Shown here: positions 12,975 through 26,206 of the stretch, in pieces
How the letters are laid out: each line of letters starts with the position of its first letter
How positions within the stretch are numbered: position 1 is the stretch's first letter
Source of the DNA: a virus
DNA length: 32,491 nucleotides
Reading direction: 5' to 3' (one strand)
IMG/VR virus record: IMGVR_UViG_3300047472_000192
Span: 1-32,491 of that record
Made by a program: the position numbers and the translations under genes
Notes under the pieces: generated by a model
The model's database searches: none
Told to the model about the DNA's origin: nothing
The model's input: only the letters and a program-made list of their open reading frames with translations

Positions 12975-13435
12975 CAGAGAACCTCTTCGTGGAAGCGTTT
13001 GCCGTTGATCTCGGCCGAAGCCTCGATGCCCAGCAGCGCGCGAGCGACGTGCAGCGACTGCGGCTGCTCGCTGGGCATCTTGACGAGGTCCGGCAGGCCC
13101 TCGACGATGATGTCGATGACCCGCTTGACGGTCATGCGGTCAGGGAACAGGCCCATATGCACGACGGCCTTGAACGCAGCGCCGACAAGGTCGCGGGTCG
13201 GCTCGCCGCGGTTGTCGGCGTAGGCCCACGCGTTGCGTTGCGGGATGACGTAGGCGGCGACGTCCATGTGGCGGTTCGCCGGGAATAGCGCCATGCACGC
13301 GCTCGGCGTCTCCTCTCCGATATCGATCCACTGGAAGGAGCAGACGAAGTCGCCGATGGTGCGTTTCAGCCAGGCGCGATCACCGGCGAGTTCGACCATG
13401 GGTGTGCCGCGCGGGCCGAGGATGCTTGCGCTCAT
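12974..13435 (-). CDS. Conserved-position protein between terminase and portal (153 aa)
   Basis: The start is taken as ATG 13435 because it overlaps the terminase stop by 4 nt (ATGA); the longer frame would overlap the terminase gene. The protein (MSASILGPRGTPMVELAGDR...) has a beta-rich middle (GDFVCSFQWIDIGEETPSAC; MDVAAYVIPQRNAWAYADN) and a helical C-terminus (MTVKRVIDIIVEGLPDLVKM). No catalytic motif, cysteine cluster or signal peptide is visible. I do not recognise the family. Its place between large terminase and portal suggests a packaging or head-assembly accessory. Confidence 0.65.
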   Translation of the reverse strand: MSASILGPRGTPMVELAGDRAWLKRTIGDFVCSFQWIDIGEETPSACMALFPANRHMDVAAYVIPQRNAWAYADNRGEPTRDLVGAAFKAVVHMGLFPDRMTVKRVIDIIVEGLPDLVKMPSEQPQSLHVARALLGIEASAEINGKRFHEEVL

Positions 13436-15009
13436 GCTGTCCTTCCGTTGACTCGATAGGCCTTCTTGGTCGACCTGACCATCGAAGGCGGCGTGTAGCC
13501 CTGGGCGCGCTGGCGCAGCGCGTCGGCGGCCTCGCTGTGTTCGTCGTGGCGGGGGTGGTCCATCCAGATCCCCATCTTTTCGTTCCACGTCTTGCGGTAG
13601 GCGCCAAGGTGGATCAGGCCGGCCTTGCACTTCTCCTCGTCGAACGTCATCGTCGAGAAGCAGGCGCGGGTCATGTTGATCCCGTGGTTGATGTCCTCGA
13701 CGCGCGGCACGATCTCGAAGCGGCCGCCGATGTGCAGCTTCTCGAGCTCGTCGATCGGCGCGCTGATCACGTCCTTGTGCTGGCGCTTGTGGCCGGCGTC
13801 GTGCGGGAGGTGGTGCACACCCCACACGTAGCCGCGCTCCTGCATCTTCCTGGCGAAGTAGCTGTAGGGCTGCTCCCACGCCTCTTCGAAGTCGATGAAC
13901 CGATCCTCGGCGCCGATGCGCTGGTGAAACCAGATCGCGGTGCCGTCGCTGCTGCCGATGTCCCAAAAGGTGTTGACCGGGACGCCCTCGACGTAGGGGA
14001 ACCGGCCGATGCGGCGCTCCTTCCGGGCCTTGCGGAGCTGGATCGCGTAGTAGGTGCCCTCGGTCGAGACCTGGAATGCTTCGAGCGGCGTGCTCGGGTA
14101 CTCCTGCCACATCTTCTCGGGCTCGCCGGAGAAGTCCTCATCGCGCGTCGCGACGTACCAGCGCCGCTGGCCGTCGTCGAGCTCGATGTCCATCGAGGCT
14201 TCGATGCCGGCGAAATACTCGCGGTCCTCATCGGTGATGACGACGTCGCCGTCGTCGATCCGGTAGCTCGGCTCCTGCCACCATGGGAAGAAGTGGAAGC
14301 GGTAGTCGCGCGGCGTGAGCGCCTTGCCCTTCTCGGCGTGCGCCATGGCCCGGCTCGACATCTTCGCGAAGTCGCCGTCCTGGCCCTCGGCCGTGCTCTC
14401 CACCACGCAAATGCCGTCGAGCGGCACGGCCGGAATCGACCCGGTGATGACTTCCTTGGCCTTGTCCGGGTACTTGGCGCAGACCTTGCCGAACTCGCTG
14501 ATGTGCAGCCGGTGGATCGTGCCCGAGCGCATCGACGTGGCGACGCGCACGCTGCTGTTGTTGTGCGCGAACAGCAGCTCGATCGCGCTGTCGCGCTTCA
14601 GCGGGAAGCACGCCCGGATCTCGTCCGGCAGCTTCTCGTAGGCCAGTTTGACCTTGTCGCGGAAGATCACCTCCGCCGCCTCACGGTCGTGCGCGATGAT
14701 CCCGCAACGCTGGTTGGCGTTGAACAGGGCGTGATCGAGCCACATGATGGCGATCAGCGTCGTGAACCCGAGCTGACGCGCCTTCAGGATGATGTTGCGG
14801 TGCCACAAGCGGCCGATCAGCCGGCGCTGCGCGCGGTTCGGCTTGAACTCGACGACCGTGCCCTCGTCGTCGTCCGAACTCTTGACCATGATCCGGTACA
14901 AGAACCCGGAACCCAGGCGCCACATCGGATCGGCCAGGCAGGCCTTGAGCTCCTCCGGCGTCGAGGGCCGGAAGTCGAGGTCGATCGCTGCCTTCGCGAC
15001 CGCGCTCAT
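13432..15009 (-). CDS. terL: Terminase large subunit (ATPase/nuclease)
   Basis: 525 aa from ATG 15009, which overlaps the small-subunit stop by 4 nt (ATGA). Residues 71-84 (RNIILKARQLGFTT) are the terminase-type deviant Walker A. HRLHISEFGK near residue 166-175 has the place of Walker B with a catalytic Glu, and VESTAEG at about 203-209 is the coupling motif. The nuclease half starts at TFWDIGSSDGTAIWF (Asp about 350), with HDEHSEAADALR near the C-terminus providing further acidic residues. The enzyme cuts concatemeric DNA and pumps it through the portal. The length and motif order are normal, so the gene looks intact. Confidence 0.88.
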   Translation of the reverse strand: MSAVAKAAIDLDFRPSTPEELKACLADPMWRLGSGFLYRIMVKSSDDDEGTVVEFKPNRAQRRLIGRLWHRNIILKARQLGFTTLIAIMWLDHALFNANQRCGIIAHDREAAEVIFRDKVKLAYEKLPDEIRACFPLKRDSAIELLFAHNNSSVRVATSMRSGTIHRLHISEFGKVCAKYPDKAKEVITGSIPAVPLDGICVVESTAEGQDGDFAKMSSRAMAHAEKGKALTPRDYRFHFFPWWQEPSYRIDDGDVVITDEDREYFAGIEASMDIELDDGQRRWYVATRDEDFSGEPEKMWQEYPSTPLEAFQVSTEGTYYAIQLRKARKERRIGRFPYVEGVPVNTFWDIGSSDGTAIWFHQRIGAEDRFIDFEEAWEQPYSYFARKMQERGYVWGVHHLPHDAGHKRQHKDVISAPIDELEKLHIGGRFEIVPRVEDINHGINMTRACFSTMTFDEEKCKAGLIHLGAYRKTWNEKMGIWMDHPRHDEHSEAADALRQRAQGYTPPSMVRSTKKAYRVNGRTA

Positions 15010-15848
15010 TCGGGCGCGTCCTTCACGACCGGCAGCGCCGAACGCCCGATGCCCTTCAGCAGCTCGCCAAGCGCATCCGCCTTCTGGCGGTTATCTGCCT
15101 CGTAGGCGCCGATGATCTTGGCGATCTTCTCCGCGGCATCGAGCTTCGAGTGCGTCAGGATCTTGACGCCGTCCTTCGTGGTCTGCACGCCGGCGAAGAG
15201 CGCGCGCGCGTCAGGCGACAGCTTGCGGGTGTCGGCCAGCCAGGTGCGCGGCACGCCGTCGCCGCGGCACTGCGGACAGTCCGGGTTCGGCTCCTGCCAG
15301 TCCCCTTGGCGTCGTGGCTCGGCCGTCCTGGGATCGATCTCGTGCGCCCAGCATGCGCCGCAATCCACCTTGCGCATCTGCGTCAGCTCGTTGGCGTCGG
15401 CGCGCACGATCGCCGCCAGGTGATGGAACAGCTCCTCGCGGCTCATCTCCTCCCGGTTCACGAGGCGATCGACCTCGGCCTTGATGCGGGCCGCGACCTT
15501 AGGCCGCCTTAGGAGATGGTGAGACGAGACGTAGGCCGCGCTCGGGCTGCTCGACTTGTAGACCGACAGGTACGCGGCGGTGCCGTTGCGGCCGTTGCGC
15601 AGGTACTCGGTGATGAACGCCTCGTGTTCGGGCGTCAGGGTCTCGGGATCCTGGGCTGGCTTGGCCGCCAGCAAGGCCGCGGCGGTGTTGGTAGCGGAGG
15701 TGGGAGTCGAACCCACGACCTTCGGGTTATGAGCCCGACGCGCTGCCACGGCTGCGCTACTCCGCTTTTGTTTCTTCGGTGCAGCGGCTTTCGGCTTCGC
15801 GCGCTTCGCCGGGGCCTTGGCCTTAGCGACGGGTTTGCGGGTTGCCAT
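15006..15848 (-). CDS. terS: Terminase small subunit with a tRNA gene embedded in its frame
   Basis: 280 aa from ATG 15848. The part from LTPEHEAFITEYLRNGRNGT to RRPKVAARIKAEVDRLV is the DNA-binding helix bundle of Terminase_2-type small subunits, which recognise the packaging site. Two CxxC pairs follow (CGACW, then NPDCPQCRGDG), probably a zinc knuckle, then C-terminal oligomerisation helices. The N-terminus is Lys/Ala-rich. Residues about 28-53 are encoded by a complete tRNA gene on the same strand (15689-15766); its 3' half gives the phrase VGSTPTSAT. The start is uncertain: no strong ribosome-binding site precedes 15848, and a start after the tRNA (TTG CTG near 15676) is possible. The call as terS is firm; the N-terminal 60 residues are not. 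Confidence 0.8.
   Translation of the reverse strand: MATRKPVAKAKAPAKRAKPKAAAPKKQKRSSAAVAARRAHNPKVVGSTPTSATNTAAALLAAKPAQDPETLTPEHEAFITEYLRNGRNGTAAYLSVYKSSSPSAAYVSSHHLLRRPKVAARIKAEVDRLVNREEMSREELFHHLAAIVRADANELTQMRKVDCGACWAHEIDPRTAEPRRQGDWQEPNPDCPQCRGDGVPRTWLADTRKLSPDARALFAGVQTTKDGVKILTHSKLDAAEKIAKIIGAYEADNRQKADALGELLKGIGRSALPVVKDAPE
15689..15766 (-). tRNA. tRNA-Met (CAT anticodon), initiator-like anticodon arm, CCA encoded
   Basis: Folding by eye gives a complete cloverleaf on the minus strand: acceptor AGCGGAG/CTCCGCT (7 pairs), TA, D stem GCGC/GCGC with a 10-base loop containing GTGG, anticodon stem TCGGG/CCCGA with loop CTCATAA, a 5-base variable loop AGGTC, T stem GTGGG/CCCAC with loop TTCGACT, discriminator A and an encoded CCA. 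The anticodon is CAT. Three consecutive G:C pairs next to the loop and the arm sequence TCGGGCTCATAACCCGA equal those of bacterial initiator tRNA. The 1:72 pair is A:T and the 11:24 pair is C:G, which is not initiator-like. It could therefore serve Met initiation, elongation, or Ile-AUA if lysidine-modified. It lies wholly inside the small terminase reading frame. Confidence 0.85.
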
Positions 15849-15981
15849 GGGTCGTTTGCGCTCGCTGCTCGATTCGTCGGATCTGGTCTTCAGACCACTG
15901 GCCGGAGTTCTGGCGCCTCTCCTGCGCGGCCCGCAGGATGTACTGGTAGAGGTTCTCGCCGGGCTTGCGGTCTGAGGTCAT
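15823..15981 (-). CDS. Short helical ORF before the small terminase (52 aa)
   Basis: ATG at 15981 opens a 52-aa frame ending in TAA at 15823, overlapping the terminase start by 26 nt. The protein begins MTSDRKPGENLYQYILRAAQ and ends RIEQRAQTTHGNPQTRR; it is charged and mainly helical. A TTGACA-type box lies about 31-36 bases upstream, so a transcript could start almost at the ATG. No ribosome-binding site is evident. The composition looks protein-like, unlike a random GC-rich frame, but no family is recognised. An alternative is that this stretch is only the leader of the terminase message. Confidence 0.45.
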   Translation of the reverse strand: MTSDRKPGENLYQYILRAAQERRQNSGQWSEDQIRRIEQRAQTTHGNPQTRR

Positions 15982-23474: not shown

Positions 23475-25220
23475 TCATGCTGCCTCGCGCAGCGCCTGGC
23501 GCTCGACGAAGTTGGCCGCGACGATCGCCTTGGCAAGCGGCGGGCAAACAGAATTTCCGCACATGCGGACCTGCGCGCTCTTTGGTAGCTCGCGGCCGTC
23601 GTGGCCCTTGTCGATGACGTAGGACTCGGGGAAGCCCTGCGCGCGGTACAACTCGCGCGGCTGCAGCATGCGCATGCCGATATCGGCGATCTCGTATTGC
23701 CCGCCATCGACGGTCACCAGGCCGAACCGGTCCTTCGTCGTGACGGTGTGCAGCGGGTCGAACAGGCTCGGGTCCTGGTCGGTGCCGTAGTACTTCATGA
23801 GCAGCGCGCGGACCTCTGCGTGGTGCTGCCCGCCGGCGCTGATCGTTCCGAGCGGGTCGTCGGTCGCGGCGCTGTTGCTGGTGCCGCGAAGCTTCGCAAG
23901 GTTCGACGTCACGAGGCCGATCGGCGCCGCGCCGCCCGGCCGCTTCTCGAAGCTGTTGCTCGTGACGGTCGCGAGCGGATCGTGCATAGGCGCGCCGGCG
24001 CTCTCGCCATGGAACTTCGTGATGTGGGCCGTCAGCAGAGAATGCTTGTTGCCCTGGGTGGTCACGGTGTGCAGAGGATCGTCGACAGGCTGCGCCGGGT
24101 TGTCGCCGAAGTTCTGCTTGACGATCGACGCGGCCACCATGTGGTGATGGTCCTGCGTCGTGATCGTGCTGACCGGCCCGTCGACCGGCACGCCGGGACC
24201 TTCGTTGCCGCCATAGTGCTTTGCCAGAAATGCGGCGACGAGTCCGTGTTTCTGCCCGTCGACGGCAGTGCCGAGCGGCTTGTCGAGTCCAGGGACTCGC
24301 GGCGCCTGGCCGGGCCGCTCGCCGTAACCGGTTTGCACGAGCGTCGGCGACACCATCAGGTGCTCGGCCTTGCTCGTCACCGTCGACAGCGGCTCGTCGA
24401 CCGGACGGACCTTGCCGGCGTCGCCGTGCCCGGTCTGCCCGATGCGGACGATGTAGGGCTGCGGCGCGTCGATCACGTAGCGCTTGATGCCGTGCGCGAT
24501 GCGGCGCATCGTGGCCTCGGCCAGGGGGCGCTCGCGCTCGAAGATGCTCGGGCACGGCAGTGACCAGTCGATGCAGTCCGCCGCGGTGCGGTACGGCAGC
24601 CGGCCGGGCCCGTGCGTCGGCTGCGGCCAAATGACCGGCATTCCATCGCAGCGCGCGACCAGGAACAGGCGCTTGCGGATCGTCGGCGCGCCGTAGTCGC
24701 AGGCGCGCAGCTCTCGGTGCTCGATGATGTAGCCCTCGCGCTCGAGCTGGCGCTTCCATGTGCGGAAGGTGCGGCCCTTGCGCTCCGGGCACGGCCGGCC
24801 GTCAGCGGCGAGCGGCCCCCAGGTCTGGAACTCTTCGACGTTCTCGAGGCAGATGATCCGCGGGCGCACCATGCGTGCCCACTTGATGACGACCCATGCG
24901 AGGCCGCGGATCTTCTTCGACACCGGCTTGCCGCCCTTGGCTTTGCTGAAGTGCTTGCAGTCCGGCGAGGCCCACAGCAGGCCGACCGGCCGGCCCTCGG
25001 TCACCGCCAACGGGTCGACCTCGAACACGTCGCTCACGAAGTGCTCGGTCTGCGGGTGGTTCGCCTGGTGCAGGCTGACCGCCGCCGGGTCGTGGTTCAC
25101 CGCGATGTCGACGTGGCGGCCGATCGCCTGCTCTATGCCGGTGCTCGCACCGCCGCCGCCGGCGAAGAGGTCGACGACAAGCTCCTCGGCCAGGTCGAGA
25201 AGGAACTGAGGCTTAAGCAT
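23475..25220 (-). CDS. DNA cytosine C5 methyltransferase with an internal repeat region
   Basis: 581 aa from ATG 25220, overlapping the preceding stop by 8 nt. Motif I is DLFAGGGGAS (17-26). The catalytic motif IV is SPDCKHFS (85-92) with Cys 88; it has P-D-C instead of the usual P-P-C. Motif VI is ENVEE (126-130), motif VIII is RKRLFLVA (182-189), and motif X is GNSVCP (555-560). Between VIII and X, where the target-recognition domain sits, residues about 257-501 form seven degenerate repeats with a K-x-x-G...DPLxTVTT...LV pattern. It methylates cytosine in DNA, presumably to escape restriction, and lies in the same operon as the adenine enzyme. The long, repeat-based recognition region could give an unusual or broad specificity. 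Confidence 0.88.
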   Translation of the reverse strand: MLKPQFLLDLAEELVVDLFAGGGGASTGIEQAIGRHVDIAVNHDPAAVSLHQANHPQTEHFVSDVFEVDPLAVTEGRPVGLLWASPDCKHFSKAKGGKPVSKKIRGLAWVVIKWARMVRPRIICLENVEEFQTWGPLAADGRPCPERKGRTFRTWKRQLEREGYIIEHRELRACDYGAPTIRKRLFLVARCDGMPVIWPQPTHGPGRLPYRTAADCIDWSLPCPSIFERERPLAEATMRRIAHGIKRYVIDAPQPYIVRIGQTGHGDAGKVRPVDEPLSTVTSKAEHLMVSPTLVQTGYGERPGQAPRVPGLDKPLGTAVDGQKHGLVAAFLAKHYGGNEGPGVPVDGPVSTITTQDHHHMVAASIVKQNFGDNPAQPVDDPLHTVTTQGNKHSLLTAHITKFHGESAGAPMHDPLATVTSNSFEKRPGGAAPIGLVTSNLAKLRGTSNSAATDDPLGTISAGGQHHAEVRALLMKYYGTDQDPSLFDPLHTVTTKDRFGLVTVDGGQYEIADIGMRMLQPRELYRAQGFPESYVIDKGHDGRELPKSAQVRMCGNSVCPPLAKAIVAANFVERQALREAA

Positions 25221-25680
25221 CGCAACCCTTCCCGATCGACCCGATGTCCTCAGGCGCGGTGAACTTCTCCCAGTGGATCCAGCCTTGCTCGGGGCAGTGG
25301 AAGCCCCATTGGCGGTAGCGCGGCCCGGTGATGAAGAGCGACCAGCATGGTCCGTCTGTCAGTTCGACGCGGTGCGCGATGCGCCCGGTCCAGCGAATGC
25401 GCACGGCGCCGGCTTCGAGTTCCTGGCGGTGGCTGATGCCGCCGGCGGCGATGGTGTGATCGACGTAGCGGCCGCGCAGCAGGATCGAGGCGTTCGCCCA
25501 CGGGTGATCGTGGAGCGCGCGGTCGTCGTCGCTGCGGCGGAAGTTGTGCAGGTAGACGTTGAAGACCTTGTTGCGCGGGATCACGAACCAGCGCAGCAGG
25601 TAGGGCCGGTCGGCGCCGCCGATGATGAAGTCCGGCGCGCGGCGCGTGACGCGCGCGATCAGCCAGTCGGCCCACTTCAT
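25213..25680 (-). CDS. Cupin-like small phage protein (155 aa)
   Basis: The start is ATG 25680, set by the ATGA overlap with the upstream stop. The core ALHDHPWANASILLRGRYVD has an HxHxW pair, followed by strands and IRWTGRIAHRVELTDGPCW, as in cupin-type barrels that bind a metal or a small ligand. The N-terminus MKWADWLIARVTRRAPDFII and the C-terminal FITGPRYRQWGFHCPEQGWI are well-formed segments seen in a recurrent phage protein group. Its stop overlaps the cytosine methyltransferase start by 8 nt, which links them in translation. A role in DNA modification is possible by association but not shown. Confidence 0.65.
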   Translation of the reverse strand: MKWADWLIARVTRRAPDFIIGGADRPYLLRWFVIPRNKVFNVYLHNFRRSDDDRALHDHPWANASILLRGRYVDHTIAAGGISHRQELEAGAVRIRWTGRIAHRVELTDGPCWSLFITGPRYRQWGFHCPEQGWIHWEKFTAPEDIGSIGKGCDA

Positions 25681-25910
25681 GAGCGTGCCTCCCGGATCTC
25701 GAACACCGTCTCGTAGCGCCCCATCGCGAGCGGCGGCGTGGACTGCTGGCTGACCGTCAGCACCAGCCCTCCCCGCTTGAACGCTTCGAGCAGCCGGATG
25801 GTCGTGACGCGGAGGCGCTCCTCGGTCGGGGCGTCGCCTCCGAGCATCACGTCGAGCAGCGCGGCTTTTTCGAGCAACGTGGCGTGCTCGGCCTCGAGGA
25901 TGGTCCTCAT
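25677..25910 (-). CDS. Small early protein (77 aa)
   Basis: 77 aa from ATG 25910, with ATGA overlaps on both sides. It is helical at the N-terminus (MRTILEAEHATLLEKAALLD; TEERLRVTTIRLLEAFKRGG) and ends in a beta segment (GRYETVFEIREARS). No motif is recognised. The tight coupling suggests it is expressed at the same level as its neighbours. Confidence 0.6.
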   Translation of the reverse strand: MRTILEAEHATLLEKAALLDVMLGGDAPTEERLRVTTIRLLEAFKRGGLVLTVSQQSTPPLAMGRYETVFEIREARS

Positions 25911-26206
25911 GCGTGGGCCACTCCTTCAAGGTCGTAGGCCAGCGCGTCGCCGCGGATCGGAACAAGCCATGCGTCCTCGACCGCTTCGAGGTAGACCGGC
26001 TCGCCGATGTAGCGATCGCCATTCGGGCACGTCGCGTTGCCCGTCATGACGAAGTCGATGCGCCGATCGATCGTCCAGCATGGACGACCGTGGGTGCCGC
26101 CGGGAAAACTCGTCACGACGGTGACGAAGCGGTCCCTCAGGTCCGAGCCGGCGGGCGGCGGATAGGCGATGCGAGCAAGATCGCCCGGCTTACACCTCAA
26201 GGTCAT
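25907..26206 (-). CDS. Small early protein with beta-barrel-like pattern (99 aa)
   Basis: 99 aa from ATG 26206, with ATGA overlaps at both ends. The sequence MTLRCKPGDLARIAYPPPAG followed by RFVTVVTSFPGGTHGRPCWT and a final DAWLVPIRGDALAYDLEG is a pattern of short strands with a KPGDLAxI start, seen in small phage proteins with SH3-like or barrel folds. The C-terminal phrase LVPIRG is common in that group. Function unknown. Confidence 0.6.
   Translation of the reverse strand: MTLRCKPGDLARIAYPPPAGSDLRDRFVTVVTSFPGGTHGRPCWTIDRRIDFVMTGNATCPNGDRYIGEPVYLEAVEDAWLVPIRGDALAYDLEGVAHA

Follow-up and report, generated by a model that had tools for sequence, protein, structure and literature searches.

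Since tRNA processing cleaves the transcript, bacteria and phages normally keep complete tRNA genes separate from protein genes. The virus record studied here, a stretch of 32,491 bases analysed at full length (hereafter the window) in which P22-type portal and capsid genes are present, raises the question of whether a phage can keep both kinds of gene on the same nucleotides. From the letters alone, a complete Met-type tRNA gene had been predicted at 15689-15766 within the open frame of terS, the gene of the terminase small subunit, together with the proposal that the dual coding may be real. In this work, we examined the tRNA, the frame that crosses it, the protein segment that precedes it and the corresponding loci of related phages.

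A tRNA-Met gene in the terS reading frame

The predicted tRNA was recovered by two independent tools. ARAGORN returned a single tRNA call in the whole window, a tRNA-Met(CAU) at exactly the predicted position, and the Rfam covariance model RF00005 scored the same segment as a full cloverleaf with 69.6 bits (E 2e-13; gathering cut-off 29) (Table 1). Its fold is more stable than that of shuffled sequences by 3.4 sd, and its lowest-energy fold in isolation is not the cloverleaf. The tRNA itself is far beyond chance. A sigma-70 consensus scan found no promoter or terminator around it. In a survey of possible host origin, an initiator-type match was obtained in 353 of 398 sampled genomes, the best one at 86%, and a pattern for the type of the window tRNA matched none of the genomes sampled.

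The 280-aa frame crosses the tRNA without a stop, its translation there reading ...RRAHNPKVVGSTPTSAT..., and it was identified as TerS because it matches PF03592 (Terminase_2; E 5.5e-16, 59.9 bits, cut-off 26.1) and PHROG 51 (E 4.9e-32) and has terL next to it. Between the tRNA and the TerS domain, one in-frame start-type codon is found, a TTG (TTG59), with no Shine-Dalgarno-like sequence before it. The 52-aa ORF upstream of terS has no family match in PHROG; as the ATG of terS lies within the end of this ORF, translational coupling of the two is possible.

Table 1. Features of the terS locus in the window and in the second phage contig (L231).
Feature	Position	Strand	Evidence or remark
tRNA-Met(CAU), 78 nt with encoded CCA	15689..15766	(-)	ARAGORN and Rfam RF00005; terS codons 28-54
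terS (terminase small subunit; 280 aa), frame open across the tRNA	15006..15848	(-)	translation, PF03592, PHROG 51
terS codons 1-27, Lys/Ala/Pro/Arg-rich disordered tail 5' of the tRNA	15768..15848	(-)	composition, relatives, pLDDT
Terminase_2 domain of TerS, residues 71-250, 3' of the tRNA	15099..15638	(-)	PF03592
TTG at residue 59, the one start-type codon in frame after the tRNA and before the TerS domain	15672..15674	(-)	
terL, terminase large subunit, directly 3' of terS	13432..15009	(-)	PHROG 2, E 2.4e-28; relatives
Small 52-aa ORF 5' of terS; 26-nt overlap with the start of terS	15823..15981	(-)	ORF call
L231 terS, 351 aa	L231:2495-3550		44% identical to window TerS over 266 residues
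L231 tRNA-Met, 75 nt with CCA, inside terS	L231:2556-2630		Rfam, 66 bits

How far chance explains the open frame

An open frame through a tRNA is, by itself, not beyond chance. The window tRNA is free of stops in two of its three frames. In a sample of 122 viral initiator-like tRNAs, 5 (~4%) sit within ORFs of comparable geometry, defined as a same-strand ORF with at least 20 codons before the tRNA and at least 60 after it; no PHROG domain was recognisable in these five ORFs. The peptide quoted in the original prediction is likewise a tRNA signature, uninformative alone on protein coding, because this frame typically yields ARRAHNPxVVGSxPxxAT. Among the matches listed for this pattern, the annotated phage ones are tRNA-Met or tRNA-fMet genes, with the exception of one hypothetical protein, and the remaining ones lie in unannotated DNA.

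Spurious ORFs of the AntiFam type over tRNA genes are a known class, characterised by a lack of independent gene evidence. They yield the same signature as the window ORF; however, they are domainless, whereas the window ORF is a real terS, with gene evidence independent of the tRNA, and its arrangement recurs. A chance ORF over the tRNA is therefore an insufficient explanation, since the PF03592 domain of a real terS 3' of the tRNA, the TerS-type tail 5' of it and the recurrence in a second phage argue against it, and these three are beyond chance. An assembly artefact is unlikely, as two independent contigs share the arrangement.

A basic, disordered tail precedes the tRNA

The 27 codons ahead of the tRNA translate to MATRKPVAKAKAPAKRAKPKAAAPKKQ, a segment that had been described as a protein-like, Lys-rich N-terminus. 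Its composition is unique in the window: its Lys content and its K/R/A/P content are reached by only 10 of 43,438 stop-free 27-codon segments on both strands, and all 10 overlap the site of the tail, as a slightly looser listing shows. Furthermore, relatives share this type of tail. Of 21 scored relatives, 12 have a basic tail at the start codon, as do 44 of 80 in a larger set; F116-like relatives carry a similar one between the ATG and the domain, mostly 18-94 aa in length (e.g., MAKEPAGKKPVPRKTTPAPKP), and in some TerS relatives the tail is short or absent. AlphaFold, run on an alignment of 12 TerS proteins, assigned residues 1-70 pLDDT values of 37-48 and modelled a helical fold beginning at residue ~71. 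Given this predicted disorder and the variation of the tail among relatives, we regard the tRNA site as a permissive, disordered, length-variable tail.

The arrangement recurs in a distant phage

Relatives were collected as 80 loci via TerL and as 80 plus 41 more via TerS profiles, the sets being partly overlapping. Among these TerL and TerS loci (about 200, with overlap), no tRNA was found in terS outside one contig, IMGVR_UViG_3300045836_000128, which appears as L231, L311 and L333 and is hereafter called L231. Its TerS protein reads MTARRSAPKADKPKVPAKKSKRGGAAAARRPHKPEVAGSTPAPATK; the tRNA-Met begins 20 codons after the ATG, at the matching place and in the same reading phase as in the window, the peptides of the two phages there being KRSSAAVAARRAHNPKVVGSTPTSATN and KRGGAAAARRPHKPEVAGSTPAPATK, and this upstream ATG is preceded by a Shine-Dalgarno-like GAGGA. 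With TerL proteins that are ~39-42% identical, the window and L231 phages are only distantly related. In the TerS tree, they appear as sisters with moderate support (84/58), within a clade of five members at 100/100; the other three (L230, L336 and L337) are without the tRNA, and the TerS of L336 begins similarly (MTARKSGP) and carries a basic tail. Homologues lacking the segment and starting after it had been named in the original prediction as counter-evidence; tRNA-less homologues do occur, but many of them start upstream of the tRNA site with a basic tail of this type, and they do not refute dual coding.

Directly after its tRNA-Met, the TerS tail of L231 holds a second tRNA-like cloverleaf (L231:2636-2710), which is the lowest-energy fold of that segment, lacks U8 and CCA and received no ARAGORN call; it may be a decayed tRNA that is now TerS code.

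Comparison of the two nested tRNAs

The tRNAs of the window and L231 are 81% identical, and 21 of 21 base pairs are kept in both, with no broken or single-sided pair. Twelve of the 14 substitutions are paired and make up six double (compensatory) changes, located in the acceptor stem (6:67), the anticodon stem (27:43, 28:42 and 31:39) and the T stem (50:64 and 51:63), the other two being unpaired; when 14 substitutions were placed at random, all pairs were kept in 0.0245% of trials. Owing to one 3-nt indel in the D loop, the window tRNA measures 78 nt and that of L231 75 nt; each length is divisible by three, so that the frame is kept; most of the CAU tRNAs sampled measure 76-77 nt.

The simplest story, and the most likely one from these comparisons, would be a single tRNA capture before the window and L231 phages split. 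Two separate captures are possible, because, over its full length, the window tRNA resembles many other CAU tRNAs more closely than it does that of L231, which ranks 60 by similarity; in that case, the covariation would reflect tRNA variety and not evolution in place. C60 in the T loop, which at first appeared only in the two terS tRNAs, was dropped as a mark of common descent once many other phage tRNA-Met genes proved to carry it in a targeted scan.

Initiator features of the two tRNAs

The base details noted in the original prediction were confirmed, namely an initiator-type anticodon arm combined with non-initiator pairs at 1:72 and 11:24. The window tRNA has the three G:C pairs of the initiator anticodon stem, as well as G2:C71 and C3:G70, but carries A1:U72 and C11:G24. 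The major initiator features are a 1:72 mismatch and the three G:C pairs, with G2:C71, C3:G70 and A11:U24 aiding formylation (PMC7949028), and the missing Watson-Crick pair at 1:72 constitutes a main initiator identity element (PMC8576571). A1:U72 occurs in 3, and C11:G24 in 15, of 98 sampled viral initiator-like tRNAs. In L231, the CAU anticodon, A1:U72 and C11:G24 are kept; position 31:39 is C31:G39 and the three G:C pairs are not present, which weakens an initiator identity. The function common to both would then be that of a methionine-type CAU tRNA. According to one published proposal, phage tRNAs stand in for host tRNAs cleaved by defence nucleases; the same study notes that tRNA-fMet is generally avoided by phages where VapC cuts the anticodon itself (PMC10264068).

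Probable dual coding and its alternatives

We consider it probable that a working tRNA-Met(CAU) lies nested in the disordered tail of terS and shares its strand and frame, a case of dual coding that likely predates the split between the window and L231 phages. This is the best reading because L231 repeats the arrangement, the base pairs are kept and relatives have the tail without the tRNA; at the sequence level, the dual coding first proposed from the window alone thus gains support from the tail, the recurrence and the compensatory changes.

One alternative is that the tRNA is functional and TerS starts after it, for instance at TTG59, the frame and the tail being leftover or chance. Open frames through tRNAs are indeed common, TTG59 stands just before the domain and certain relatives have a short tail or none; nevertheless, the segment 5' of the tRNA follows an ATG, is in the correct frame and shows a TerS-type composition seen nowhere else in the window, TTG59 is without a Shine-Dalgarno-like sequence, and L231 repeats the pattern with such a sequence at its upstream ATG and with the frame kept in both phages, which makes a late start quite improbable. 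We also judge it unlikely that the tRNA is a captured passenger, now tail-coding sequence only and neither processed nor charged. A disordered, variable tail would tolerate any insert, the degenerate second cloverleaf of L231 resembles a decayed capture and the extended mRNA fold loses the cloverleaf, but each of the two tRNAs is intact, has its CCA and retains all of its pairs, and the pairing would have decayed if carried since the common ancestor. A regulatory switch or a modifier of the initiator pool, in which maturation would limit TerS and thereby set the timing of packaging, with the tRNA taking part in initiation, would agree with the fact that processing must destroy the message in cis, and with the three G:C pairs, G2:C71 and C3:G70 of the window tRNA, all listed initiator features (PMC7949028). 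Such a role is very improbable, given that the L231 tRNA is without the three G:C pairs and that both tRNAs have the 1:72 Watson-Crick pair whose absence is a main initiator element (PMC8576571).

Under dual coding, translation of TerS would start at the ATG at 15848 and run through the tRNA, unfolding the cloverleaf and adding ~26 residues to the tail, an insertion that would be tolerated because the tail already varies in length and composition among relatives; AHNPK or VVGSTPTSATNTAAALLAAK in TerS would be the peptides that mark such translation. A ribosome-free transcript could instead adopt the tRNA fold, and RNase P together with 3' processing enzymes would then cleave it into a mature tRNA and a terS fragment with no good start site. 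After excision, the 5' piece would consist of 27 codons, and the 3' piece would hold before the domain only TTG59, so that the processed RNA would be unlikely to yield normal TerS. Each RNA molecule would thus give TerS or tRNA, not both, an exclusion in cis that follows from RNase P chemistry; TerS is presumably needed in small amounts, and the loss of message would therefore be affordable. Against easy processing, the cloverleaf is lost in both phages when the flanking mRNA is folded thermodynamically, although such models ignore tertiary contacts and co-transcriptional folding. More tentatively, the two phages might share a conserved either-or locus whose transcript becomes TerS or tRNA, where maturation would exclude the start of packaging per molecule and ribosome load would set the balance.

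Relation to known systems

Phages such as Stenotrophomonas phage QDWS359 and Xanthomonas phage Elanor have, as the window does, a CAU tRNA with CCA near the terminase genes, and their tRNA-Met/fMet genes are 82-86% identical to the window tRNA; however, theirs are free-standing after terL, whereas that of the window lies inside terS. The TerS of Pseudomonas phage F116 (PF03592) resembles the window TerS in its domain and its basic N-terminal tail, but F116-like TerS contains no tRNA. Certain related, F116-like contigs (L247, L250, L251, L253, L257 and L262) have a free-standing tRNA-Met ~0.6-2 kb upstream of terS, and tRNA-Met and terminase genes are a recurring neighbourhood among them.

Integrase genes of the SSV type, like the window terS, hold tRNA sequence inside a viral protein gene, the attP lying within the ORF; there, only the 3' part of a tRNA is present and serves integration, whereas the tRNA in terS is complete. 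Staphylococcal terS-terL transcripts give rise to cabRNA, a structured functional RNA that triggers CBASS (PMC10686824). The window tRNA would likewise be a structured functional RNA from terminase genes; they differ in that cabRNA is not a tRNA but a CBASS trigger. A complete tRNA within terS was not described in the literature searched, which included few subscription papers; the arrangement is real and, as far as that literature shows, unreported, with two cases found here.

If both layers are kept in phages whose TerS proteins are 44% identical, tRNA evolution is possible within a protein frame; if true, disordered tails would be places where RNA genes can land, and a single message may be contested by ribosomes and RNase P. 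Moreover, annotation pipelines that drop ORFs overlapping tRNAs could truncate real genes.

Other ORFs containing a tRNA-Met were observed during the analysis. At L388:1500-2207, an in-frame tRNA is preceded by a membrane-anchor-like N-terminus and followed by an Amidase_2 (endolysin) domain (E 1.6e-16), possibly a second gene family with a nested tRNA, where translation could in truth begin at a GTG that closely follows the tRNA. At L409:4194-4835 (-), a tRNA-Met lies inside an ORF without a family match whose later part is protein-like. Finally, the window contains an unusual phage cargo, an ORF at 25213-26022 (-) that matches a PHROG named cysteine dioxygenase (E 3.9e-51).
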